64,000 bases of DNA from a virus: the IMG/VR virus record IMGVR_UViG_3300016457_000282, positions 86,431 to 150,430 of that record; one strand, 5' to 3'. The notes below the pieces were generated by a model, which saw only the letters and a program-made list of their open reading frames with translations, did no database searches and had not been told where the DNA came from. A program made the position numbers and the translations under genes. Shown here in pieces: positions 1 through 63,890 of the stretch (position 1 is the first letter of the stretch; every line of letters begins with the position of its first letter).

Positions 1-891
1 TGACAACCAATCTTTTAAAAACGGCATAATGATATTGAGTCTGGATGTAGATGTGAAGTCTGCTATTTTCGTTTTGATTTTGCTTTGTACTCTTTTCAGC
101 AACTGAGCATCAGTATGTACTTTAACGTGACAATCTGGGCACAGTGTAATAAGATTATCCGGATGATCTTTACCGTTTTGAGATCTGGGTACTACATGAT
201 GCAGCTGAAATTGAACGTTCTTCTTTCCGCATAGCTGACATGCATACTTATCACGGTGTAGTACATAAGCACGAATATTTTGGTAACCGAATAATCTTCC
301 GTGTTGATACTGCTCACCTTCAATATCTGAATTCATCATACGTTGGATGTCAAACTTAGCATATTCAAGTGAGATGTTAGCGTCAGGAACGTATTCAACT
401 ATTTTCTGTATAGCAGCTTTATGTGACTCTAGAAAATGTCGAACTGATGGAGTCAACCGTCCATCTAAACGTCTTCTATTTTCGAATCTAGCTGGTCTAT
501 GCTTTGGTACGAGTCCTTTTCTCTTAATACGTTTACGTCTGAAGTATCGTCTCATATTTCGATATCCCCGTCTTATCTCAAGTAATTGCTTGATTTCTTT
601 CGACCTTGTGTGAAATTCGATACTTAGCAATTGCTTGACTTTGTTATACATAGTGATTCTGACTAAACAAATACCAATCGTATCTCCTGGATCTACTCCA
701 ATCCAGTATATAGGGTTATCTCTTTGCTGCGATAGTGTCTTGAACACTTGTACGACCATAATTTTACCGACAAATCGAATGACTTTAGCATTCATCTGTC
801 GCAACCAACGTTTAACCATATCCAACTTTCGTGTTGGATGTAAAATGTTATTTCTTCCATCTACAAGAAATATTAATCGTTGATGTTGCAT
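1..891 (-). CDS. iscB: IscB-like RNA-guided nuclease, 3' end cut by window edge
   Basis: The frame is open for 297 codons from an ATG at 891 to the window edge. Visible parts in order: an N-terminal segment like the IscB PLMP region (LHPTRKLDMVKRWL), RuvC-I with IGVDPGDTIGI (Asp67), an arginine-rich bridge helix (RRGYRNMRRYFRRKR, about residues 107-121), RuvC-II with ISLEYAKFD (Glu176), and an HNH domain with CxxC at 218/221, LHHVVPRSQNG (His232) and CPDC at 251-254. RuvC-III should follow but lies outside the window. A strong CAGGAGG precedes the start. IscB proteins are the ancestors of Cas9 and use an omega RNA encoded just upstream. All catalytic residues in view are present. Confident in family. 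Confidence 0.9.
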   Translation of the reverse strand, partial: MQHQRLIFLVDGRNNILHPTRKLDMVKRWLRQMNAKVIRFVGKIMVVQVFKTLSQQRDNPIYWIGVDPGDTIGICLVRITMYNKVKQLLSIEFHTRSKEIKQLLEIRRGYRNMRRYFRRKRIKRKGLVPKHRPARFENRRRLDGRLTPSVRHFLESHKAAIQKIVEYVPDANISLEYAKFDIQRMMNSDIEGEQYQHGRLFGYQNIRAYVLHRDKYACQLCGKKNVQFQLHHVVPRSQNGKDHPDNLITLCPDCHVKVHTDAQLLKRVQSKIKTKIADFTSTSRLNIIMPFLKDWLS

Positions 892-904
892 CGATTTTCC
901 TCCT

Positions 905-1030
905 GGTGTATGCCCCTATAGGGCAGGAGCAGTAATACGTCCCTGGCCTGAGCTATGGCTTGAAAGTACGAACGCATTCAATCGAATGCTCCTTCGCAGA
1001 GCCAGGAGCTGGAACGACACCCCTGGGTGC
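905..1030 (-). ncRNA. Candidate omega RNA (HEARO-type) upstream of IscB
   Basis: The sequence just upstream of the iscB start folds well: a closing stem CCTGGC/GCCAGG (942-947 with 1001-1006), an inner perfect 6-bp hairpin GCATTC-AATC-GAATGC (974-989), and a 5-bp hairpin TGCCC/GGGCA (911-925). IscB genes carry their guide scaffold in this position, with the scaffold ending near the ORF and the guide further upstream (here above about 1030). The exact ends cannot be fixed by eye, and I make no claim of a consensus match. Confidence 0.6.
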
Positions 1031-2207
1031 ATCACCATAGTCCATTGGCATGATCACAAGCCAGGATGCTTTAGCTCCTAGTCATGTGACGGAGTTTAAG
1101 TGTACTCTAAACGCTACGATACAGAACCCACACATTGGAATACGACACTGTACTTTGCAGATCACGTGAAGAAAACCGTGATGCTTTAGCACCTAATCAT
1201 GTGACTATGTTTAAGCGAAGAAAAAAATCTAAGACGCCAATACAGATCACTACGTTACGCGACAGCACCTTTCACTTTACTGCACTTCAAAATACCACAG
1301 TACACTTAACCGTTACCACACACAACTTCAGACTGCTTTAGTTGACTTTACATTACCGGTGCAGGACCAGGCCTTACATCACCTTCGCAATATGATACGG
1401 TACCTCTCTTTACCATACTCCCCCACAACACGGAGCATTACGAAGCCACCACTCGAGTTCGCTAAACTTACTCAAGCCTCCACAGCATAGTACGATACAC
1501 CACCTTCACTTTAGTTGACTTTGCAATAGCTTCTCCTCAGAGCTGTCTTTTCTTCCACTTTTCCTTACTTTCTTAACAAAAACTACCAACGCATGTTGAA
1601 AAGGCTACCAAACAGTGCAGTCAACTACCTTAGAGACAAACTTCTAGGTTTTCTCTGAAAACTTTTGATAAAACTCCTTACATCTAAGTTATTCAGTACT
1701 TAATTGCTATGACCAAGACAGTGCGTCGCATGCAAAACAATACAATACCTTTACTTTACACAACATTGGTTTGCTCTACTGAACCAAGCTTTCACGCCCC
1801 GTAAAAACTCTTTGACTGCACTGTACAACATTCTTTGCCACATAATGGAACAATCTCTCTTTAAGAGACATCTGAGAAGGAACTTCCCTTCTTCTAACCA
1901 CCTATGAGTCATCGTATGTTCAGTTAGTCAAAGTAGTTTACTTTTACATCAAATTACATAACACCACGATACCGGTTACACGACTACACTTTTCCGTGCT
2001 AATACTACCTTTCCCCATTCTACCTACGATGGCTCTGTAATCTTCTGGTTTGCAAACTGATTTTCCGCTCACGGAACTGAGCATCACTGTGCTCATGCTT
2101 AGCTCTATAAAGACAAACCTTCACGCTTCGTTACAGTGCATTACAAACGCCATACAGAGAAAGTCATGATGTTTTAACACAGGATCATATGACCACTACT
2201 ACATACT
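1031..2207. other. 1.2-kb stretch without a convincing gene
   Basis: No frame on either strand has a ribosome binding site plus coding-like composition. No complete tRNA was found by eye. The stretch contains three copies of a degenerate motif (separate entry) and a palindrome GAGCA-TCACTG-TGCTC near 2078-2093. The upstream guide portion of the IscB omega RNA and the promoter for iscB would be expected here. Confidence 0.5.
1064..2193. repeat. Three dispersed copies of a ~27-bp motif
   Basis: Copies lie at 1064-1090, 1178-1205 and 2166-2193. The shared pattern is GATGCTTTAGC, then CCTA, then TCATGTGAC; the third copy is more diverged (GATGTTTTAAC, TCATATGAC). The first two copies are also preceded by GATCAC about 10-20 bp upstream. 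They are the only clear internal repeats of the gene-free stretch beside iscB and could mark protein binding sites or remnants of an element boundary. Confidence 0.5.
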
Positions 2208-2822
2208 TCAAGGTGACACTTCTACTATTTCGAAACGACCATAACCACCGGAGCCTCTCCACTGTCCTAACCCAACGTATTTACCATAATCAAGCATTTG
2301 CTCAATAGCGTCACGATTAATCCCAACTTTATTCTTCAGAATTCTCACTGTAAACTGAATTTCAGTCCCTGCATCTACATAATCACTTCTGCAAACAGTC
2401 ACTCGAGGACCTTTCGCTGTTAACGTTCTCAAAGGTCGCTCTAAGCAACCATCTGGTTCCTTCTTTCCTAACGGTATCTGCCGTGGGTCAATAAAAACTA
2501 CCAGATCGATCCACTTCTTATAAGCAACGATCTTAGACAAGGCTCCTGCGGACATGCACACTTCGCATGCGCTTTTAAGGAAGCCTTTGATCATGTAGTT
2601 GTAGATGAAAATACCTTGCTCGTTCTTATGAAATCCGGTCCAACCTCTCTCCTCTACTTCTTCGACGGTTTCCGTTTCTTCCTCTTCCAGTTCAGGTTCT
2701 GGTGCCTTACTTGCTACAAAACGAGTATAGACTTCTGGATCTTTTGGCACAGTACCTAAAAGTTTCTCCAACAAGCGGATTTTTACGTCAAACCTTTCTT
2801 CCAACTCCGAGAGCTTCTTCAT
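2208..2822 (-). CDS. Conserved phage-type protein with glycine-rich C-terminus
   Basis: 204 aa, ATG start behind AAGGAGGGTTAAAAAC. An acidic linker (residues about 43-58) separates a short helical N-terminus from a domain containing GWTGFHKNEQGIFIYNYMIK and a C-terminal glycine-rich GLGQWRGSGGYGRFEI. That loop recalls RAMP-like folds, but the similarity is only visual. It is the last complete gene before the IscB locus. Function unknown. Confidence 0.8.
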   Translation of the reverse strand: MKKLSELEERFDVKIRLLEKLLGTVPKDPEVYTRFVASKAPEPELEEEETETVEEVEERGWTGFHKNEQGIFIYNYMIKGFLKSACEVCMSAGALSKIVAYKKWIDLVVFIDPRQIPLGKKEPDGCLERPLRTLTAKGPRVTVCRSDYVDAGTEIQFTVRILKNKVGINRDAIEQMLDYGKYVGLGQWRGSGGYGRFEIVEVSP

Positions 2823-2890
2823 GTTTTTAACCCTCCTTATTTGATATTGAGTTAAATCGAGCTACTACTACAAAACTCTCTTTCTCAAGC

Positions 2891-3080
2891 TTACAGTGAA
2901 CCTTCTAAAGAGAGTCTCGTGCCTTGAATAACATTGTTACTCTTGCTACAAATACGCTCGTCCTCGCTATAACATATAAGACGACCGGCATAAGCGTCAC
3001 AAAAAATCTTCACTACACTTAGGCAAGGCTTTGCCGCAAGCTAAGTATTTGTCTTTCGTGCCATAGATGTAACATTTCAT
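2891..3080 (-). pseudogene. Cys-rich small protein gene broken at a T6 run
   Basis: ATG at 3080 opens 27 codons, then stops at TGA just after a run of six T (3001-3006 on the plus strand as A6). If one T is removed the frame continues to TAA at 2891, giving a 62-residue protein with six cysteines (MKCYIYGTKDKYLACGK at its start, SEDFCDAYAGRLICYSEDE across the junction). Composition on both sides of the break is coding-like. It may be a decayed gene, a sequencing indel, or a slippage-dependent gene. The ribosome binding site is weak. Confidence 0.5.
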
Positions 3081-3099
3081 AGCTTACTCTGCTACTTTT

Positions 3100-3882
3100 T
3101 TAGTCTAATCTTCCTAACATAGGCCAATGAACCATAATAAAAGATCCTCTTACAGTCACTGTATTAGAGCCACCTTCAACTAAGTCTTTGACACTCAAAG
3201 TGGCTTTTCCGTAAGTTCGGAATAAAGCCTGGGCTCGCTCGTGTCCATAGTAGTCTTCAGAGTAGGCTCTCCAAATATAGAGAGCTCCTTCAACTATTTT
3301 GATTTCGTGATGACCCATGTTAAAAGAATCGCCTTGAACCAACGTGTCAAACCCATCACTTTTTTCACAAGAAGGATAAACAAACAGTTTCAGTCGACTA
3401 AAAGAAATTGAAGAAGCTACAAAGAAAGCTCTCTGCCGCAGCCCTGGTATCACGCTACCTTTTAGTTTTATTTTACCGTTACACTGCCCGAGTCGAGGTA
3501 ATTTGTATATGTATTCAGAGTCATTTAGAATTTCTACAATATCTTCTACTCCTAAATCAGGAGCAGACAACCAATTCTGAGATAAAGGAGGTTCAGGACA
3601 AAAACGCCCTGGAACTTTACGAGCAAGTTCTTGGACCCCTTTGGAAATTAAATCTCTCAGCTCACTTTCTTTAGGAGGCGGGTAATAACAGTTAATTAAT
3701 TTAATGTCAGCGGCCTGTAATGGTTCGGATTCAAATTCCCGGGGAGTTGTACCTCCTGCAGGATTTATACTGCCCGGCATTTGTACTCTCACTACAGGAG
3801 TATCAGGCTCAATATACCAATGATACCTTTCGTTCAAATAACCTTTTAGTTTTCGTAAGCTACAGTAGGACAAACTCCCCAA
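3100..3882 (-). CDS. Unknown protein, probably the 3' part of a frameshifted gene
   Basis: 260 codons, opening only at a TTG directly after an in-frame TAA and without a good ribosome binding site. Not recognised. A 37-codon frame with a perfect ribosome binding site (3846-3959) overlaps its 5' end in another frame and probably supplies the true N-terminus through a -1 shift around 3846-3860. Contains PGSINPAGGTTPREFE and a C-terminus with beta-strand-like composition; a structural or substrate-binding role cannot be told apart. Confidence 0.6.
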   Translation of the reverse strand: MGSLSYCSLRKLKGYLNERYHWYIEPDTPVVRVQMPGSINPAGGTTPREFESEPLQAADIKLINCYYPPPKESELRDLISKGVQELARKVPGRFCPEPPLSQNWLSAPDLGVEDIVEILNDSEYIYKLPRLGQCNGKIKLKGSVIPGLRQRAFFVASSISFSRLKLFVYPSCEKSDGFDTLVQGDSFNMGHHEIKIVEGALYIWRAYSEDYYGHERAQALFRTYGKATLSVKDLVEGGSNTVTVRGSFIMVHWPMLGRLD

Positions 3883-5542: not shown

Positions 5543-5665
5543 GACAACCTCCTCATTTCTAAAGTTTGAGAACAGTAAGAGATTTTTCGCCGAGTTGCGC
5601 TACTGTCTAACTCCTTGTCGTTTGATGGCACGAACGAGAGTAAACTTTTCCTATATTAATGAGTA

Positions 5666-6172
5666 TTACAACGAGTCTTGCATTAAGAAAACATATCTCT
5701 TGGACTTACCGAACTTAAGAGCGTCTTCTTTACGCCACATGAATACATCAACGTGTGGTCCTTTTACTTTTGGAGACATTAGATCTCCAATGATTTTGAC
5801 TCCAATTCCTTCAATATAAACTTTTCGACCCGGCGACCAACCTTGGCGCAGTAAGTCTCGAGAAATAGCAACGTACTTAGGATGAACTCTTTTGAGAAAA
5901 GCAGTGGTATAGGGAGTAGAGTCGCATTCACGAATGGAGGGCGAATATGCAGTAACAGTAGCGATGACATAGTTCTTGTACTTCAGGGATTTGAGCTCTA
6001 CTGTGAGGGAACTTACTTGCTTGGTTAAATCAGAGATGATCTCTTGTTGTCGAGCAATGATATAGTCGTACTGAGAAAATTTGTCGCTAATGTATTTACC
6101 TGCTGTAAATGAAGTAAGAGCAGCAAGACAGATAGTACTACCTGCAAAGAGTTGAGCTAATCTTCTGTTCAT
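5666..6172 (-). CDS. Membrane-anchored 3D-domain (MltA/RlpA-like) protein
   Basis: 168 aa. Residues about 8-25 form a hydrophobic signal anchor, followed by a coiled-coil stretch (about 38-65) and a 3D domain: VTAYSPSIRECD, VAISRDLL, PGRKVYIEGIG, GDLMSPKVKGPHVDVFM with the conserved aspartates. 3D/double-psi barrel domains occur in lytic transglycosylases and resuscitation-type proteins, so a cell-wall role at lysis or entry is plausible. Start overlaps the preceding gene end by 4 bp. Confidence 0.75.
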   Translation of the reverse strand: MNRRLAQLFAGSTICLAALTSFTAGKYISDKFSQYDYIIARQQEIISDLTKQVSSLTVELKSLKYKNYVIATVTAYSPSIRECDSTPYTTAFLKRVHPKYVAISRDLLRQGWSPGRKVYIEGIGVKIIGDLMSPKVKGPHVDVFMWRKEDALKFGKSKRYVFLMQDSL

Positions 6173-10570: not shown

Positions 10571-10749
10571 TCGTATTTACTCAACGACGCTGCACACTCT
10601 TCACAGTATTCGCCGATCCAAAACTCGTTCAATGCCTTAGAGTAGCTAAAGTCAGAGTAGTCACAAGACACTACCTCGAACTCTCTACAAGCGATCAGAG
10701 CAAGCTCTCTGCCGCACTTTCTACAACAAATTGTAATGTAGTCCTTCAC
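10567..10749 (-). CDS. Zinc-ribbon protein, 60 aa
   Basis: Two cysteine knuckles (CRKCGREL, EYCEECAA) separated by about 36 residues make a zinc-ribbon fold likely. Small phage proteins of this type are frequent; role unknown. Start is 9 bp downstream of the queD stop on the same strand. Confidence 0.7.
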   Translation of the reverse strand: MKDYITICCRKCGRELALIACREFEVVSCDYSDFSYSKALNEFWIGEYCEECAASLSKYD

Positions 10750-10758
10750 GACTTACTC

Positions 10759-11247
10759 CTAAAGTGTTTTGATTGAGGACAACTCCTCAGTCAAAGCATC
10801 TTCAGTGTTAACAGGCAGCATCAAGCTGTAAGCGCCCCAAGAACGCTCAGTTTCATACAGAGTCGTGCACAAAGACGCAATAGCCTCAAAAGTAGGCTGT
10901 GAGAGAGTATTCTTTAACGCAAAGTACATCTTAACGGTACTAAGATAGGTTAAGTATTCAACTGTAGGATCTATAGGTAGTATTACCGTTCCTTTTTTAT
11001 CAGTACTAGCATCACTTGTCAAGAACTTGTGATCGAAAAAGTCCTCAACTTCTCTTTTGAGGAGTTGTTTTAACACTGAAAAATCAACGAGCATTCCTCT
11101 AAATTCGTGCGGCTCTTGAGTAGTTGTAATCGAAAATTCACCTTTGTACGTGTGTCCATGAACTCGAGAACACGGATGTCCTTCTGGTACAGTCTCGCTC
11201 AATCGATGAGCGGCATTAAACGAGAACTTTCTTGCGATTGTTAACAT
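10759..11247 (-). CDS. queD: 6-carboxytetrahydropterin synthase (QueD)
   Basis: 162 aa from ATG 11247, six bases after AGGAGG. Family signatures are complete: FSFNAAHRL with a zinc histidine, HPCSRVHGHTY with the catalytic Cys and the two zinc histidines, and GMLVDFSVLK followed by DFFDHKFL. QueD converts 7,8-dihydroneopterin triphosphate to 6-carboxytetrahydropterin on the way to preQ0, used for queuosine and, in phages, for 7-deazaguanine DNA. No QueC, QueE, FolE or recognised DpdA is visible in the window. Confidence 0.9.
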   Translation of the reverse strand: MLTIARKFSFNAAHRLSETVPEGHPCSRVHGHTYKGEFSITTTQEPHEFRGMLVDFSVLKQLLKREVEDFFDHKFLTSDASTDKKGTVILPIDPTVEYLTYLSTVKMYFALKNTLSQPTFEAIASLCTTLYETERSWGAYSLMLPVNTEDALTEELSSIKTL

Positions 11248-13035: not shown

Positions 13036-13127
13036 AGTTCCGGCTGAGACCTTGTACCTTTACGACTGCGAAGTGACTAAGTAGCAAGTGAGCGTAACAC
13101 TCACTATGAGATAGGTCCTATAGCCGG
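13036..13127 (-). ncRNA. Structured region at the 3' end of the RT gene
   Basis: On the minus strand an outer imperfect stem CCGGCT..GGACC / GGTCTCAGCCGG encloses a perfect-type hairpin at 13088-13104 (GTGAGCG-TAA-CACTCAC on the plus strand). The same apical sequence GCGTAACAC occurs in a hairpin upstream of the RT (14350-14366) with a different, compensating stem. It overlaps the last RT codons and stop. It could be a terminator-like fold or part of the RT element. Confidence 0.4.
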
Positions 13128-14066
13128 AACCGTTTCACTTCGGTACACCATATTTAACCAACCTTTGATACCGTTGATTTTATGTTTACTTAATGAGATC
13201 TTACCTGTCTTATTGTTGTGAAGCATAGCTCGGTACAATCTTCTAACCTTACGCGATATCGTAACTTTGTCAGAATGAACTACACAACCCAAAACTCGTA
13301 GCTTGCCTCTTCCGACTCTTAACTTAGAAGGATGAAGCTCAAGACTGATTTTGTTTAGGTAACGGTTAATGACCTGACTCGTTTTTGAGATGGAGATTTT
13401 AGCGTCTTTAGGAAAGGACACTAGTATATCATCTGCGTAACGAGTGTATACACCGTGTAGTCTCGCAATTACTTCTGCAATTACTAAATCAGTCTGAGAA
13501 AGCACGATATTGAACAACCGGCCCGAAGTAGGAGCTCCTTGAGGTAAACCTTTAAAGTAACAATCTCTTATCAACATTTGTCTAACAGAAAGCGGCACAT
13601 CGTGCTTTACCAGTACTGAGTCGAGAACTTTTTTTCTGATCGAAGGATAAGCATCCTTTATGTCCAGTCTTAGGAACAAGTAGTTACCTACATGCTTTTC
13701 AAGAGCATCTCGTAAAGATCTGCGTTTCTCGAACGCATAAGCGTGCGTCACTTTAGGAACCAAAATGTAGGTTAGCTTTAACCACGCTCGCTGTCTCTCC
13801 TTGAGTTGATCTGAAGGAATGTACAGAGTTCTAAAACCACCAGACCTTTTAGGGATCCTAACAGGAGTATACTCAACTTTAACGTCTTCGCTTAACACAT
13901 TATGGTACTGTTCATACCAATCTCTCAAAGCGTGCTTACGCACTCCTAACCAAAAAGCAGAAGTGCCTTTCTCTACCAACTGTGAGTAAACAAAAGCAAA
14001 GGAAGGAGACATCTCAACTTCTTCAACATCGTTAAAGATCGACAACAGTTCGTCCAAGCTGAACAT
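13104..14066 (-). CDS. Reverse transcriptase, retron-like
   Basis: 320 aa, ATG behind AGAGGAATAGT. RT motifs in order: RT1 IPKRSGGFRTLYIPS (71-85), RT3 LRLDIKDAYPS (Asp135), RT4 GLPQGAPTSG (173-182), RT5 YTRYADDILVS (YADD 210-213), RT7 VLGCVVHSDKVTISRK, and an end with KINGIKGWLN like the terminal helix of retron RTs. No maturase or endonuclease domain. QGAPTS and YADD separate it from diversity-generating RTs. Retrons are anti-phage systems with an RNA template just upstream, and a structured region lies there. The subtype needs a phylogeny. Confidence 0.88.
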   Translation of the reverse strand: MFSLDELLSIFNDVEEVEMSPSFAFVYSQLVEKGTSAFWLGVRKHALRDWYEQYHNVLSEDVKVEYTPVRIPKRSGGFRTLYIPSDQLKERQRAWLKLTYILVPKVTHAYAFEKRRSLRDALEKHVGNYLFLRLDIKDAYPSIRKKVLDSVLVKHDVPLSVRQMLIRDCYFKGLPQGAPTSGRLFNIVLSQTDLVIAEVIARLHGVYTRYADDILVSFPKDAKISISKTSQVINRYLNKISLELHPSKLRVGRGKLRVLGCVVHSDKVTISRKVRRLYRAMLHNNKTGKISLSKHKINGIKGWLNMVYRSETVPAIGPIS

Positions 14067-14202
14067 ACTATTCCTCTTTAATAGGCGTTATATGGTTTAT
14101 AGTTAGAGTGAGACAGTCCAACCAGTCGTGAGGGTTTACAACCAAACTAAGAGTACCTATGAAGAACTCGGCGAACTCTCGTCTTTTTCTCTTCTGAAAG
14201 TT

Positions 14203-14388
14203 CTTTTCACAATTTGAGAGTACAAACTTAAAGGATTCACGACAGCGACCTCTTTTGTGAAAGTTGGAGAGGTTCTATCTTGCGCAGCTTTGCCGAGACG
14301 AAGCGAGGCGAACCTGCTCAAGACTACGCACAATGGTAAGTAAATTAGTCTTGGCGTAACACCAAGCTCGCGCTTCAACCTCTCCTTA
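14203..14388 (-). ncRNA. Candidate RT-associated ncRNA (msr/msd-like)
   Basis: Upstream of the RT, arms 14266-14274 and 14377-14385 (GGAGAGGTT/AACCTCTCC, extended by GTT/AAC across a bulge) close a domain with at least two hairpins: 14350-14366 (CTTGGCG-TAA-CACCAAG) and a GC-rich one around 14284-14318. A further pair, TTCACAA/TTGTGAA (about 14207-14213 with 14253-14259), lies on the RT side. A 90-codon frame across it is not protein-like. The arrangement resembles retron a1/a2 repeats, but the branching G and exact ends are unproven. Confidence 0.5.
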
Positions 14389-14469
14389 ACACTAACGGAG
14401 AAACAAATATTACAGCTTTCTAATAACATAATGAATCACTAATAGCAACTTCAATGCCTGTCTGATCTG

Positions 14470-16016: not shown

Positions 16017-16141
16017 GATATATCGCCTCTTTTCTTGTTCTAACTAATCTCTCTTATGATTTACTTTTTTAAATACAGAGTACTAGGTTCGTTTTCGTTT
16101 TTTCAAAATTAAGAGTATCGGATTCACTCTTCAAATTTTTA

Positions 16142-16313
16142 AATGAGAGAGTACTAAAAGTCATTCTCCGATTTTAAATGAGAGAGTACTAAAAGTCATT
16201 CTCCGATTTTTATAAATGAGAGTGTACTAAAGTCATTCTCCTCTTTTAATGAGAGTGTACTAAAGTCATTCTCCTCTTTTAATGAGAGTGTACTAAAAGT
16301 CATTCTCCGATTT
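16142..16313. repeat. Five tandem iterons next to parB-like gene
   Basis: Units begin at 16142, 16177, 16215, 16248 and 16281, with periods of 35, 38, 33 and 33 bp. Consensus AATGAGAGWGTACTAAAAGT followed by CATTCTCCKMTTTT. Each unit is an imperfect palindrome (GAGARTG-TACT / AGTCATTCTC). A degenerate hairpin AAGAGTATCGGATTCACTCTT lies just before. Such arrays serve as replication-initiator sites, partition centromeres or multi-site operators between divergent genes; here they separate the minus-strand 114-aa gene from the plus-strand ParB-like gene. Confidence 0.85.
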
Positions 16314-16507
16314 TTAAATTTTTTAGATATGGGGTACTTACTCCTGTTATTGTAACTCAACCGCCCCGGGTTCAGTTCCTAAGGGGGTGTTTTGTGAGGT
16401 ACTTAACGTAGTTTAGTTCCTTGAGACAACCCCCGGCAGTAAGAGTCTGTCATTTAGATTATTATTTGCTATTCTACGCTTTGTTTTGCTGGAAATTTTT
16501 TCCTTAG
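16314..16507. other. Gene-free part of the control region
   Basis: No gene seen. It holds one copy of an 18-bp word TGAGACAACCCCCGGCAG (16423-16440) that recurs exactly near 19630-19648, and a GC-rich stretch with CCCCGGG around 16363-16369. It lies between the iterons and the first palindromic element. Confidence 0.4.
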
Positions 16508-16560
16508 ACGGGCCATGATGGCCCGTTCCTGAGTTGTAATGATTTCAATAAGTTAGCTGA
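16508..16560 (-). repeat. Palindromic repeat element, copy A (inverted)
   Basis: Minus-strand reading: TTATTGAAATCATTACAACT, five to seven bases, then ACGGGCCATCATGGCCCGT, a 9-bp-arm palindrome. The flank plus palindrome recurs at 17661, 19540 and 20310. This copy is upstream of the ParB-like gene and in opposite orientation to the others. Confidence 0.8.
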
Positions 16561-17497: not shown

Positions 17498-17660
17498 TAT
17501 TTTTCGGTACTTGTGAAAAAATTAAAGAAGCTCGGTTGTACATAGATAAAATTTCCTCAGTTTCTTATACAAAAACTTGCTGTTTTGTCTTTTTTGTAAG
17601 GTTCTACTATGTAAAACTATAAATTTTAGTAGACTGTTGCGAACCGTACTTCATTTTTGT

Positions 17661-17734
17661 CCTCAAAAATTCCTACTTTTCTAAGCTAACTCGTTGAAAT
17701 TATTACAACTCAGACACGGGCCATCATGGCCCGT
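17661..17734 (+). repeat. Palindromic repeat element, copy C
   Basis: Contains CCTCAAAAATTCCTACTTTT (17661-17680), the conserved TTGAAATTATTACAACTC flank and palindrome ACGGGCCATCATGGCCCGT (17716-17734). Nearly the whole 74 bp matches copy D, which implies a duplicated element and not a chance palindrome. Confidence 0.8.
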
Positions 17735-19428: not shown

Positions 19429-19539
19429 TTTTCTGCCCCCTTTTCTCTTTTTTACAGGATTCACGCAAAATTTTAAAAAAATTTTAGATAAAATTATATG
19501 TAAATAAAAAAATATGACCTAACCTGTCCTCATTTTTTG

Positions 19540-19614
19540 CCTCAAAAAATTCCTACTTTTCTAAGTTAACCTATTGAAATCATTACAACTCCTGACCGGG
19601 CCATGGTGGCCCGT
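19540..19614 (+). repeat. Palindromic repeat element, copy D
   Basis: CCTCAAAAAATTCCTACTTT, then CTATTGAAATCATTACAACT, then palindrome CCGGGCCATGGTGGCCCG (19596-19613). About 85% identical to copy C by eye. It lies between two family genes, and the 18-bp word TGAGACAACCCCCGGCAG follows 15 bp later, as it also occurs near copy A. Confidence 0.8.
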
Positions 19615-19749
19615 CTGTCACTACTTTCTGAGACAACCCCCGGCAGATGAACCAAACTAACCTTCCCTTTCCTTTAACAAAGCAGACGGAGGGATCCCAA
19701 GGTCCCTTTTAAGAACCCGGTTCTTGTTACCTGACCTAAACCCGTGGTA

Positions 19750-25521: not shown

Positions 25522-27663
25522 CTACTCCTCAACTGTAATAATCCTACACTTGTTCTTATCACCACTCCAACGAATTTCCGGGATTATCTTTTCACGTATT
25601 ATTCTGTGTTTGTATTTGATTAGGTTGGTTAAGATGTTTTTGATCACTACAGCGGGGTTTGCTGTAGGTTTGTAGCCAAGTCTAGGTAAGTTGTTCCTAT
25701 CAGGGTTGTAGTAGTGATCTTCCGCTTCAACTCGTGGATTTTCATAGTGAGCGAGTTTGACAGTGAACCCCAGCTTTTCTGCCTCCCTCTTTACCAACCG
25801 AGCCAGCCAGATGATTTCGTATACATCCTCGAATTGGTTAAACACTCTATATTCTCCTTCCTTGGGAGGGTTCTCAATAGCAATACGGAAGCATTGCATG
25901 GAGTCTTGAATGGGAAGGAACCCTCTCTTCTGCTTCCCTTTTCCATAAACCGTTAGTGGAATTCCTACAATAGCCTGAGCGCAAGTACGATTTACGAGAG
26001 TGCCGAAGCAGTTATGCACCTGGACGTTGTTTGCGACGTACGTGTGATCTTCTTCAACATGGAGGTTGTATACCTTCCCTTTGTACATCTTACTTGAAAC
26101 TGATTTTACTCGCACCAGGTTGTCAAACCCTCCTGAATGTAAATAGATAGGACAGCTCAAATCCATTACGCTTATGATCGAAGTCCCGTTTGCGACTAAC
26201 CTGTTAAACCTCTCATACTTCTCAAGGAACGGATTAGTTTGAACTTGGAGCCATTCTTTTAGTTCTCGCGCTGTCATCCACCGTGTCGTCTCTTTACCGT
26301 GCGCTGAAGAGAGCGTCGTTACTAAGATGGGATGACCTGGCGTACAAACAATTTTTCCAAAAGCGCGCTCAAGTTCTATCTCTATCACTTCCCCAACGTA
26401 TTCTCGTTCAAACTTCTTAAGCACCTTTCGAAACCGACCCTTATGAGTTAAGACTTTGTCTCCTACCTGAACGTCTTTTATAGGTTTTACGCCCTCTAAG
26501 CATGTAATTCTGGTGTTAGGAGGAAAACATTCATCTACATCATAGCGAGTAATTAATCTCTCATCTCCTTTCATTTCGGGGATCTGAATCCCATAAACCA
26601 CTCCTTGCATGATATCAGTAGATCTAAGCCCCCAAACGTCGCAAGCAAATCTAATGTTGACAGAATCGTGTACCTTCGTACAATGATAAAAACTAGGAGG
26701 TTGACAAGGAAAAGGAAGAGTATCTTTACGCCCTCTATATTCAACTTCAAAGAATCCCTCAGGAATGTCGAGGTTTGTGACGCCATACTCTCCCATTGTG
26801 TTTCCTGACCAAGCCGCTTTTCCGTTCCGGCGTACATATATGATTCCTGTAGGAACGGTGCAACAGTACACCTTTCCTGCATAAGGAACCCATTCCATAT
26901 CAGAAGGAGTTACTTTAGTTTGGCTATCTATCTGTGGAATTATGAAGCTAGATTTCTTTGCCACGTGATCAGCCCTCTTTATCTGCACAACTCCCGAAGG
27001 AGATTCTCTAAAGACCACTCTATGATTGGGAGTAATCACGAAATCGACATCGTCGTTCACAATTCTCAGCATCTCTCCCGCATACGGATACTCAACTATA
27101 TGGTTTGGACAGTTGAACGATACTTCTCCTGTTTCTCCGTTGAGACAGCATACTTTGTCAGAGTAATCTAGGTCCTTGAACAACTTCCATCCTTTACTTG
27201 TTAGCACCTCTGTTTTGTCGTCATAACATCCTAATTTAACTAAGTGGATATCCTTACTCACAGCTTTGATGGCGTACAAAAGGTTTAAGGTCCCCACTAG
27301 GTTGTTGACTTGGGTGAAAGTAGTGTGATGTACATCGATCATTGAGTAAGGTGCAGAAGGCATTTCACCTAGGTGGACAATTGCATCTGGTTTGAACTCT
27401 TTAATGGAGTTCAACACAAATTTGGGGTTCCTTAAGTCCCCGAAATAGAAAATAGGTTTCCTACCAAACACTTCCTCACAAGCACGTATCCTCTCTTCCA
27501 TACTCGCGATGGGTGTCACGGATTGAGATCCCATCTCCTCAACCCACTCTCTTCTCAACATCAAATCACAGCCACCTACTACGTAACCCCTAGCAAGTAA
27601 GTAAACAGTTAAAGTCCAACCCAAGTAACCATCCATTCCTGCAATATACACTCTCATCTGCAA
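25522..27663 (-). CDS. SQD1-like NAD(P)-dependent sugar-nucleotide enzyme with two inteins
   Basis: 713 codons; removing two inteins leaves 397 aa, the normal size of UDP-sulfoquinovose synthase (SQD1). Rossmann start VYIAGMDGYLGWTL, then TMGEYG with the catalytic Thr, FYHCTKVHDS (Tyr326/Lys330 YxxxK), TVYGKGKQKRGFLPIQD, RVFNQFEDVY and NPRVEAEDHYYNPD are all SQD1-type. It should make or modify a sulfo- or related sugar nucleotide for glycan or lipid decoration. Spliced product needs both inteins removed because they interrupt the active-site region. Neighbour terminator at 27683 isolates it as its own unit. Confidence 0.9.
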   Translation of the reverse strand: MQMRVYIAGMDGYLGWTLTVYLLARGYVVGGCDLMLRREWVEEMGSQSVTPIASMEERIRACEEVFGRKPIFYFGDLRNPKFVLNSIKEFKPDAIVHLGEMPSAPYSMIDVHHTTFTQVNNLVGTLNLLYAIKAVSKDIHLVKLGCYDDKTEVLTSKGWKLFKDLDYSDKVCCLNGETGEVSFNCPNHIVEYPYAGEMLRIVNDDVDFVITPNHRVVFRESPSGVVQIKRADHVAKKSSFIIPQIDSQTKVTPSDMEWVPYAGKVYCCTVPTGIIYVRRNGKAAWSGNTMGEYGVTNLDIPEGFFEVEYRGRKDTLPFPCQPPSFYHCTKVHDSVNIRFACDVWGLRSTDIMQGVVYGIQIPEMKGDERLITRYDVDECFPPNTRITCLEGVKPIKDVQVGDKVLTHKGRFRKVLKKFEREYVGEVIEIELERAFGKIVCTPGHPILVTTLSSAHGKETTRWMTARELKEWLQVQTNPFLEKYERFNRLVANGTSIISVMDLSCPIYLHSGGFDNLVRVKSVSSKMYKGKVYNLHVEEDHTYVANNVQVHNCFGTLVNRTCAQAIVGIPLTVYGKGKQKRGFLPIQDSMQCFRIAIENPPKEGEYRVFNQFEDVYEIIWLARLVKREAEKLGFTVKLAHYENPRVEAEDHYYNPDRNNLPRLGYKPTANPAVVIKNILTNLIKYKHRIIREKIIPEIRWSGDKNKCRIITVEE
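26011..26529 (-). mobile_element. Intein 2 in the SQD1-like gene
   Basis: Residues 379-551 (173 aa). Starts CFPPNTRITCLEGVKPIKDV (block A), has TPGHPIL (block B), and ends VYNLHVEEDHTYVANNVQVH-N before Cys+1 (blocks F and G). Class 1 signature with C1, His-Asn terminus and Cys+1. No room for a LAGLIDADG endonuclease; about 60 residues between blocks carry none. Inserted between the conserved YDVDE and FGTLVNR of the host protein. Confidence 0.9.
26800..27228 (-). mobile_element. Intein 1 in the SQD1-like gene
   Basis: Residues 146-288 (143 aa). Starts CYDDKTEVLTSKGWKLFKDL, block B is TPNHRVVF, block F VYCCTVPTGIIYVRRNG, and the end AAWSGN precedes Thr289. Penultimate residue is Gly, not His, as in a minority of inteins. 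It is a mini-intein without homing endonuclease, placed exactly before the catalytic TMGEYG motif. Confidence 0.88.
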
Positions 27664-62701: not shown

Positions 62702-63890
62702 CGCTTTAACCTGTTATTTTTCTTGACCCTTTCGGGCAAGTAGTACAACTACTTCCCTACGTCACCGTAGGGGTCGGACTGTCGTATACACTAACCAGAT
62801 CCTGAAAGAGGTTAGTGTCCTCTACGCTCAGTCTCTGCAGCCGCAGTTCGCTATTCAACTCTCTTTTGGGTCCCCGTCTTCTCTCGGGCGGATTTAATTC
62901 ATTAAATTTCGTCCAGAAAAACTGATATAGAACTTCCTTCAAATCTTTCTTCCTCCGCCCAAGAGGCAAAGCTAACGCAATTGTAGCTAACATTCGTTTA
63001 TCGTCCGGAAGAAACAAATGGACCCTTTCTAAAACACGTTTCGCTTGTCGACCTCTAACTACAACCTCACCTTTCTTCCTTGAAGTTCTGATTCTCTGAA
63101 GGGCATCTTTAACGTCTTTATCATTAACCATTACGACTAACTCAGGAAAGTACGACAAGTACCGCCGTTCCTTCGAACCTCCCCAAACGCGTAAAATCAT
63201 AATCTTCTTAATACACCTCGCAACCTTTTGAGCTAGGTCATCGTCCCACAGAGTCGCGCGAACTGCTTGCTGGGGGTTGACAACGGTAATCCACTTATAA
63301 GAGTGAAACGGAATTAGTGGGTCTCCTATGTACTCGAAGAAATCTAGGGCACAATCTTGATGTAACCTAAAAATCGGTCCTGTTGGGGTTTGGACAACCG
63401 TCCCATACAAGCCCAACTCTTCAAAGCACCTAACTATCTCTTTCACCTCGGGAACCGCCCAACTATTTAAGCACATAGTCGGGCTATTCTCAATAACAGT
63501 ACCATCACCACAATAAGCAACGTTCAAAGTAGTAGGCGTCCATCTAAAATCTTTGGGAAGCTTTTTCTTTTTATCATCATACCAACGATAGTGAAGATTC
63601 TTCATAACAGGAGCTTTATATCCAACAACTCTGTAAGAGATAAATTTCTTCCCAAATCCAATACGTACTTGTTCTCTAATAGAACAGGAAATAACAGGAC
63701 GAAGAAGGTTACAAACTTGCTCTGCGTACAAACGCTTGGTCGTCCCCAACTCGAACCTATAGTCACCAGCCTTACAATAAGCAATATGCCCATCACTGAA
63801 AATTAATCCATCTAAAATCTCATTTAGCTGAGTGGATACCATTGTGTTTCCCCGTTGATCAGCAGAGGTTTTACGGGCCCAGTGTCACTT
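62702..63890 (-). mobile_element. Group I intron in the major tail protein gene
   Basis: 1189 bp separate exon 1 (..TTC GGG CCT) from exon 2 (GGT GTG CTT..), and joining restores one frame. At the 5' site CGGGCCU pairs with GGGCCCG as a P1 stem ending in the obligatory U-G pair; the last intron base is G. Near the 3' end, A-GAGACUGAG and GACAGUCC resemble the P7 R and S elements, with ACACUAACC/GGUUAGUGU as P8, and hairpins CCCUACG/CGUAGGG, AAGUAGU/ACUACUU and GCCC-GAAA-GGGU follow. The endonuclease ORF overlaps this core. Confidence 0.8.
62757..63842 (-). CDS. LAGLIDADG homing endonuclease (intron-encoded)
   Basis: 361 aa. LDGLIFSDGHIAYCK at residues 10-24 is the first LAGLIDADG helix, followed by FISYRVVGYKAPVM, then a second-domain pattern YCGDGTVIENSPTMCLNSWA and VKEIVRCFEELGLYG. 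The C-terminal third (HLFLPDDKRMLATIALALPL, RRRGPKRELNSEL) is basic. It starts 49 bases after the 5' splice site. Such enzymes cut intronless alleles of the tail gene to spread the intron. Confidence 0.85.
   Translation of the reverse strand: MVSTQLNEILDGLIFSDGHIAYCKAGDYRFELGTTKRLYAEQVCNLLRPVISCSIREQVRIGFGKKFISYRVVGYKAPVMKNLHYRWYDDKKKKLPKDFRWTPTTLNVAYCGDGTVIENSPTMCLNSWAVPEVKEIVRCFEELGLYGTVVQTPTGPIFRLHQDCALDFFEYIGDPLIPFHSYKWITVVNPQQAVRATLWDDDLAQKVARCIKKIMILRVWGGSKERRYLSYFPELVVMVNDKDVKDALQRIRTSRKKGEVVVRGRQAKRVLERVHLFLPDDKRMLATIALALPLGRRKKDLKEVLYQFFWTKFNELNPPERRRGPKRELNSELRLQRLSVEDTNLFQDLVSVYDSPTPTVT

Follow-up and report, generated by a model that had tools for sequence, protein, structure and literature searches.

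Does a reverse transcriptase (RT) gene carried by a phage, with a hairpin of the same apex on either side of it, belong to a retron, and does its enzyme work with one structured RNA or with several? The locus that raises this question lies in a 64,000-nt stretch of viral DNA (hereafter, the window), which corresponds to positions 1–64000, minus strand, of the 150430-base record G000. Most of what is known about retrons concerns bacterial defence systems, each having one non-coding RNA (ncRNA) and one effector. The reading that we consider somewhat the more probable is that the locus may be a variant phage retron whose single RT serves two or more structured RNAs; it is drawn from the retron character of the RT, from the closing stems and common apex of two RNA domains (R1 and R2), which stand above shuffled controls, and from relatives with several RNAs. 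The features are listed in Table 1.

Table 1. Features of the RT locus, in coordinates of the window.
Feature	Coordinates	Strand	Basis
R1, upstream RNA domain, 120 nt; retron layout (a1, hairpin, msd-like hairpin, a2)	14266..14385	minus	folds, shuffles
a1 arm of R1; G directly after	14377..14385	minus	stem shuffles, coordinate check
msr-like hairpin of R1, CTTGGTGTTACGCCAAG, UUA triloop	14366..14350	minus	hairpin search, fold
msd-like hairpin of R1	14277..14324	minus	constrained fold
a2 arm of R1; AG directly before	14266..14274	minus	stem shuffles, coordinate check
Retron-type RT, 320 aa	13104..14066 (stop codon included)	minus	profile matches, AlphaFold, Foldseek
R2, downstream RNA domain, 96 nt; overlaps RT stop codon	13036..13131	minus	folds, shuffles
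5' arm of R2 closing stem, within last RT codons	13122..13131	minus	fold, stem shuffles
msr-like hairpin of R2, AGTGAGTGTTACGCTCACT, UUA triloop, 9-nt apex as in R1	13087..13105	minus	hairpin search, fold
3' arm of R2 closing stem	13036..13045	minus	fold, stem shuffles
Next gene, 121 aa	12647..13012	minus	weak match to phrog_1987 (unknown function), 5.8e-5

Reverse transcriptase and phage context

The RT gene is an intact ORF, and its product carries the motifs LPQGAPTSG and YTRYADD, with the catalytic motif intact; the initial annotation had read LPQGAPTSG and YADD from the sequence. Its best matches were retron RTs. The NCBIfam model of retron St85 gave 158 bits, below its cut-off of 235, and that of group II maturases 61.6 bits; among the PADLOC models, RT_II-A was the best (2.1e-43, 146.6 bits), followed by the Ec107-like (4.2e-39) and III-A (5.4e-38) models, and among solved chains Ec86 ranked first by RT sequence (5.5e-22). 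A classification of retrons was reportedly given by Mestre and others (2020). In a Foldseek search with the AlphaFold model (pLDDT 88.4, pTM 0.83), ranks 1–16 by E-value were all retron RTs with a TM-score on the query of 0.59–0.68; since G2L4 and group II RTs, which occupied ranks 17–26, had TM-scores as close as 0.61–0.64, the fold alone was not decisive for the RT type. Taken together, profile matches, PDB sequence and fold support assignment to the retron RT family. Group II or DRT identity was ruled out, as the retron models scored ahead. The alternative of a new RT class, also raised initially, was an overstatement: the enzyme is a divergent retron-type lineage.

The degree of divergence is considerable, with 26–37% identity over the best segment to relatives beyond the same phage (best 80 per collection). 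Region X of the enzyme reads ALEKH (RSLRDALEKH) with no NAxxH, and region Y reads VLG, not VTG. According to PMC6868368, NAxxH is present in 14 of the 16 validated retron RTs, so that this motif is usual rather than strict, and VTG variants exist among validated retrons. The same departures are not specific to phages, because NAxxH and VTG are also absent from L011, a retron on a plasmid whose annotated effector is of the St85 family.

Two long proteins showed weak similarity to tape-measure and tail proteins encoded by tailed phages, and no tRNA genes were found in the window. The RT gene and its flanks were present twice in record G000, inverted about its exact centre, which fits an inverted duplicate of about 75 kb (an artefact or a real inverted end); in a 107-kb contig of the same phage the RT was present once. 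With regard to a possible DGR, the segment 13000–14480 matched, within its own record, which is probably a fragment, solely itself and the inverted copy. Another assembly of the same phage (L001) had 11 differences from the window, all at 10594–11108; because none of them falls in the retron region, it provides no independent evidence on the retron.

Structured RNAs on both sides of the RT gene

Between the end of R1 and the RT start there are 200 nt. The domain is closed by the perfect 9-bp stem GGAGAGGTT/AACCTCTCC, and a stem as good or better arose in 8 of 1000 shuffles (60/120-nt flanks) and 13 of 500 (130/130-nt flanks); its fold z-score was −2.50. The initial annotation had noted this closed domain upstream of the RT. 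R1 has the organization of a retron ncRNA adjoining the RT, with an a1/a2 stem, an msr-like hairpin and an msd-like hairpin. When held to the stem and the hairpin, it had an energy of −45.0 kcal/mol vs. −46.3 kcal/mol for the free minimum, so the retron-like fold costs 1.3 kcal/mol more. Among the checks proposed in the initial annotation, folding gave a retron-like R1 at this cost, and the search with covariance models gave no match, either to Rfam (zero matches in the window at gathering thresholds) or to the group RNA model described below. The R1 hairpin was absent from the minimum-energy fold at 37 °C, where four of its five stem pairs had probabilities of 0.06–0.07 and the innermost 0.23; at 60 °C it lay inside the minimum-energy structure, yet its probability was 0.11–0.16.

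The structured region that the initial annotation noted after the RT corresponds to R2 (fold z-score −4.29; two folds of the R2 type were strong). It is closed by the stem GGTTCCGGCT/AGCCGGAACT, which has 10 bp including one G-U and encloses the downstream hairpin; shuffles with a stem at least as good as its 9-bp core numbered 3 of 1000 (60/120-nt flanks) and 8 of 500 (130/130-nt flanks). The R2 closing stem was missing from the list of the initial annotation. The pairs of the R2 hairpin had a probability of 0.91, and the last two letters of the RT stop codon sit inside it.

The hairpins of R1 and R2 both have 7–8 bp, a UUA triloop and the identical apical sequence GTGTTACGC (GCGTAACAC on the plus strand), with different lower stems; the shared apex and the differing stems had been noticed initially. 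One hairpin pair with the same loop and different stems within 1500 nt was found on the real minus strand, whereas, when the 64-kb strand was dinucleotide-shuffled 60 times, at least one such pair arose in one of the shuffles. Both occurrences of the apical 9-mer in the 107-kb contig of this phage fall in these hairpins, and the window was, together with L068, one of 2 of 170 RT loci (some of them near-identical) with a common apical 9-mer upstream and downstream, vs. 12 of 28,730 mismatched pairs. Region Y of the retron RTs studied recognizes its own msr hairpin, and exchange of region Y exchanges the recognition; two hairpins of the same form and apex are what would be expected of two RNAs per RT. 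The second RNA in the window rests on one common hairpin and a strong closing stem. As for the covariation proposed earlier, the stems do differ compensatorily within the genome; no independent homologue of the window's RNAs was found (L001 being the same phage), and covariation with controls was observed in the RNAs at RT loci of other phages.

IMG/VR was searched for exact 17-mers taken from both hairpins; beyond the phage itself they were found in L176, L178 and L179, which was judged to be due to chance. The match in L176 lies at a contig end beginning with adapter-like letters.

In RT sequence and fold, as well as in the upstream ncRNA with an a1/a2 stem, an msr-type hairpin of 7–8 bp with a three-base loop and an msd-like hairpin, the locus resembles the St85/Ec86 retrons (PADLOC RT_II-A, NCBIfam NF038233). 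In contrast to them, it has an RT score below the model cut-off, lacks NAxxH and VTG, shows no effector among the neighbours tested and has a second RNA with the same apex.

Related phage RTs with several RNAs

Around 30 of the viral loci collected encode relatives of the L068 RT. A scan of viral contigs with the group alignment yielded 373 relatives, of which the best 80 were kept and, with 11 earlier loci, gave 91 loci, reduced to 80 after RTs more than 90% alike were dropped. In this group of phage RT loci with several ncRNAs (A4, L180–L259), the consensus reads RSxxDAxKxH and NLG; in the alignment of 84 RTs (hand-picked from 141 non-redundant RTs and the window), eight group rows lacked NAxxH and VTG (six NLG, one CLG and one IHG).

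When 400 nt upstream were compared with 500 nt around the downstream side, a similar stretch (score of at least 32) was found in 28 of 79 group loci vs. 1.11 expected from mismatched loci, so the test was negative in about two-thirds of the group. Among bacterial retron loci the count was 2 of 78, with 0.16 expected, and among other viral RT loci it was 0 of 47; at the lower threshold of 28, bacterial loci reached 5 of 78 vs. 1.46 expected. The two bacterial loci at the higher threshold were L105 (Phycisphaeraceae) and L109 (Corallococcus), whose similarity may be due to coding or low-complexity sequence. In a stricter hairpin test, 6 of 80 group loci had upstream–downstream pairs (0.56 expected), the hairpins being identical in two of the six. 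L248 and L202 are among the loci whose copies keep the second hairpin and have a wholly different first stem; the long identical copies in L235 and L230 could be a recent duplication or a product of assembly.

In an alignment of 24 RNA copies from 15 loci, at least one two-sided compensatory change was found in 14 of the 15 consensus pairs; this alignment omits six of 30 copies (one from L187, both from L243, both from L076 and one from L184), which aligned badly. A covariance model was searched for in 81 of the 91 group loci and in the window. At E ≤ 1 it gave 112 matches, of which 110 were on the RT strand and two, both in L253, on the opposite one; the 635,632 bases of 80 bacterial retron loci gave a single marginal match (E = 0.97). 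The 79 matches of at least 30 bits, which include the copies used to train the model and come from loci not independent of each other, were distributed over 36 of the 81 loci, with at least two copies in 26 of the 36 (two in 14, three in 11 and eight in one). An a1/a2 repeat closed 66 of these 79 matches, compared with 33 of 395 controls with a shuffled 3' part; among the 66 closed RNAs, a G followed a1 in 57 and AG preceded a2 in 39. The group RNAs are mostly about 300 nt long (median span 307) with two msr hairpins each. At least two matches at E ≤ 0.01 were also found in 19 of the whole records of 20 phages, which had been hand-picked among loci already having model matches. In these related phages, one RT plausibly yields several msDNAs.

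The largest array, in L182, contains eight copies in 5.3 kb, 277–323 nt long and each closed by a repeat of 8–13 bp (one G-U allowed). Over the first 70 nt, the last six copies were 76–90% alike, and the two nearest the RT were 51–71% like the rest, whereas the msd parts were 54–64% alike throughout vs. 54% for shuffled letters; within this array, the one examined closely, the msd parts are unrelated. A search of one L182 msd against known phages gave zero matches.

An RNase HI gene (PF00075, 6.4e-44) lies among the ncRNA copies of L182 at 5621–6088. RNase H was considered as a component of the system for this reason and was rejected, PF00075 being present in just 2 of 22 records. Upstream of the ncRNA–RT array, at 170–3338, L182 has a ThiF gene (PF00899) and three ORFs with no Pfam match, which by eye seem to encode a ubiquitin-like protein, a protein of unknown kind and a JAB-like protease. 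By eye, a ThiF-like ORF stands at the corresponding place in L016, L017 and L018. Long, strong msd-like hairpins were seen 67–284 nt downstream of the RT in L017, L028, L018 and L036, that of L028, for instance, consisting of 14 perfect base pairs that enclose 39 nt.

In a tree of 56 rows (hand-picked from the 84-row set, with six group RTs added), the window RT was sister to the group (92/80), and both joined L023, L035 and L077 (91/92); its branch was long (1.6), and it belonged to none of the starred sets. In the first quick tree, built from the 84 rows, the same fork had a support of 49. The group profile scored 151 bits on the window RT, so near the St85 and II-A scores (158 and 146.6 bits) that profile scores do not separate the group from either. 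The window shares with the group the RT lineage (with moderate support), the departures from NAxxH and VTG, RNAs flanking the RT and, in R1, the G after a1 and the AG before a2; it differs from the group in that its R1 and R2 are shorter and are unmatched by the model of the approximately 300-nt group RNAs (zero matches in the window at E ≤ 1). Because of the long branch, the weak first tree, the lack of a model match and a flank similarity score of 18, under the control median of 21, the window was not placed within the group; it probably represents a sister lineage of the same design. Whether the group forms a class of multi-template phage retrons, with two to eight ncRNAs of common msr and unrelated msd, from which one RT would make a panel of msDNAs, and with no dedicated effector, of which the window would be a second and more divergent case, is in our estimation evenly balanced.

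Competing explanations, proposed mechanism and minor observations

The alternative that survives best is an ordinary retron with a single ncRNA, in which R1 would be the sole cognate RNA of the RT, and R2 would be a structure at the 3' end of the mRNA controlling its stability or translation, with the apex shared by chance. Several properties of R2 agree with it: by fold and coordinate check, R2 lacks both a clear msd hairpin and a G directly after its 5' arm, the start codon of the next gene stands 24 nt past it, there is no convincing overall homology between R1 and R2, and the group RNA model misses R2. The rarity of the common apex and of the R2 stem in the shuffles speaks against this explanation, as does the same arrangement at RT loci of other phages, and we regard it as a serious though distinctly less probable account than that of one RT with several RNAs.

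A classical tripartite defence system carried by the phage, with an effector that escaped recognition, appears improbable. Retrons are typically described as an RT, an ncRNA and a toxic effector (PMC12548924), and type II-A was the best PADLOC model; in the ten neighbouring ORFs, however, the only PADLOC matches were a weak pair (E = 0.0017 and 0.0048), and none of the neighbours compared with Pfam and NCBIfam was identified as an effector. With the patterns used, the 121-aa gene following R2 was found in IMG/VR just in the same phage. The remark in the initial annotation that no effector was obvious holds for these neighbours and is not extended to the whole phage. That the two hairpins are instead bound by some other protein, e.g., a phage regulator of transcript processing, the RT gene merely lying between them, is still less credible: both hairpins belong to the RT transcript strand, one at each end, but within the 107-kb contig the apex is confined to the RT locus, and R1 carries other retron features.

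Under the preferred reading, that of a phage-borne retron with more than one RNA, the window RT would recognize the UUA-triloop hairpin of both R1 and R2 in the way that region Y recognizes the msr hairpin. It would prime from the G after the a1 arm of R1 and copy the msd-like hairpin into branched DNA, and R2 may be a second RNA ligand, another but short template, or a control site in the RT mRNA to which the enzyme binds. Counter-defence or phage competition, raised in the initial annotation, are putative functions. The DNA products would probably serve the phage during infection, e.g., by luring host DNA sensors or nucleases away as decoys, or in competition with other phages; decoy, weapon against other phages and regulator may each be considered as roles, and that the products serve the phage as a decoy or against competing phages is a guess to which we give rather low credence. 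If the reading is true, phages produce sets of small DNAs that serve their own purposes, one enzyme yields several DNAs at once, and natural panels of msd on a common msr would make recognition of msDNA testable.

Among titles and beginnings of abstracts in the open-access literature, with preprints and most subscription papers outside the scope, no phage retrons with several ncRNAs were found. In PMC6868368, a hairpin-containing ORF is proposed as an alternative msr of Retron-Sen1 (Se72), and Retron-Nex1 (Ne160) is described as having repeated msr/msd sequences and no RT within a kilobase; they offer earlier examples of, respectively, an alternative msr, as proposed, and repeated msr/msd units, although the second element of Se72 is an ORF, and the Ne160 repeats have no RT nearby. 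Retronphage phiR73 (Ec73) is likewise a retron on a phage-like element, but a second ncRNA is unmentioned in the passages on it in PMC6868368.

Elsewhere in the window, a palindromic hairpin, ACGGGCCATSATGGCCCGT, is repeated at 16514, 17405, 17722 and 20361, with one variant in the first letter, and dispersed repeats are located around 16124–16319, 17650–17734 and 19521–19616. By eye, the ORF at 25522–27663 (minus strand) is presumably epimerase-like and seemingly broken by an intein-like sequence, and the ORF at 62757–63842 (minus strand) presumably resembles a LAGLIDADG endonuclease.
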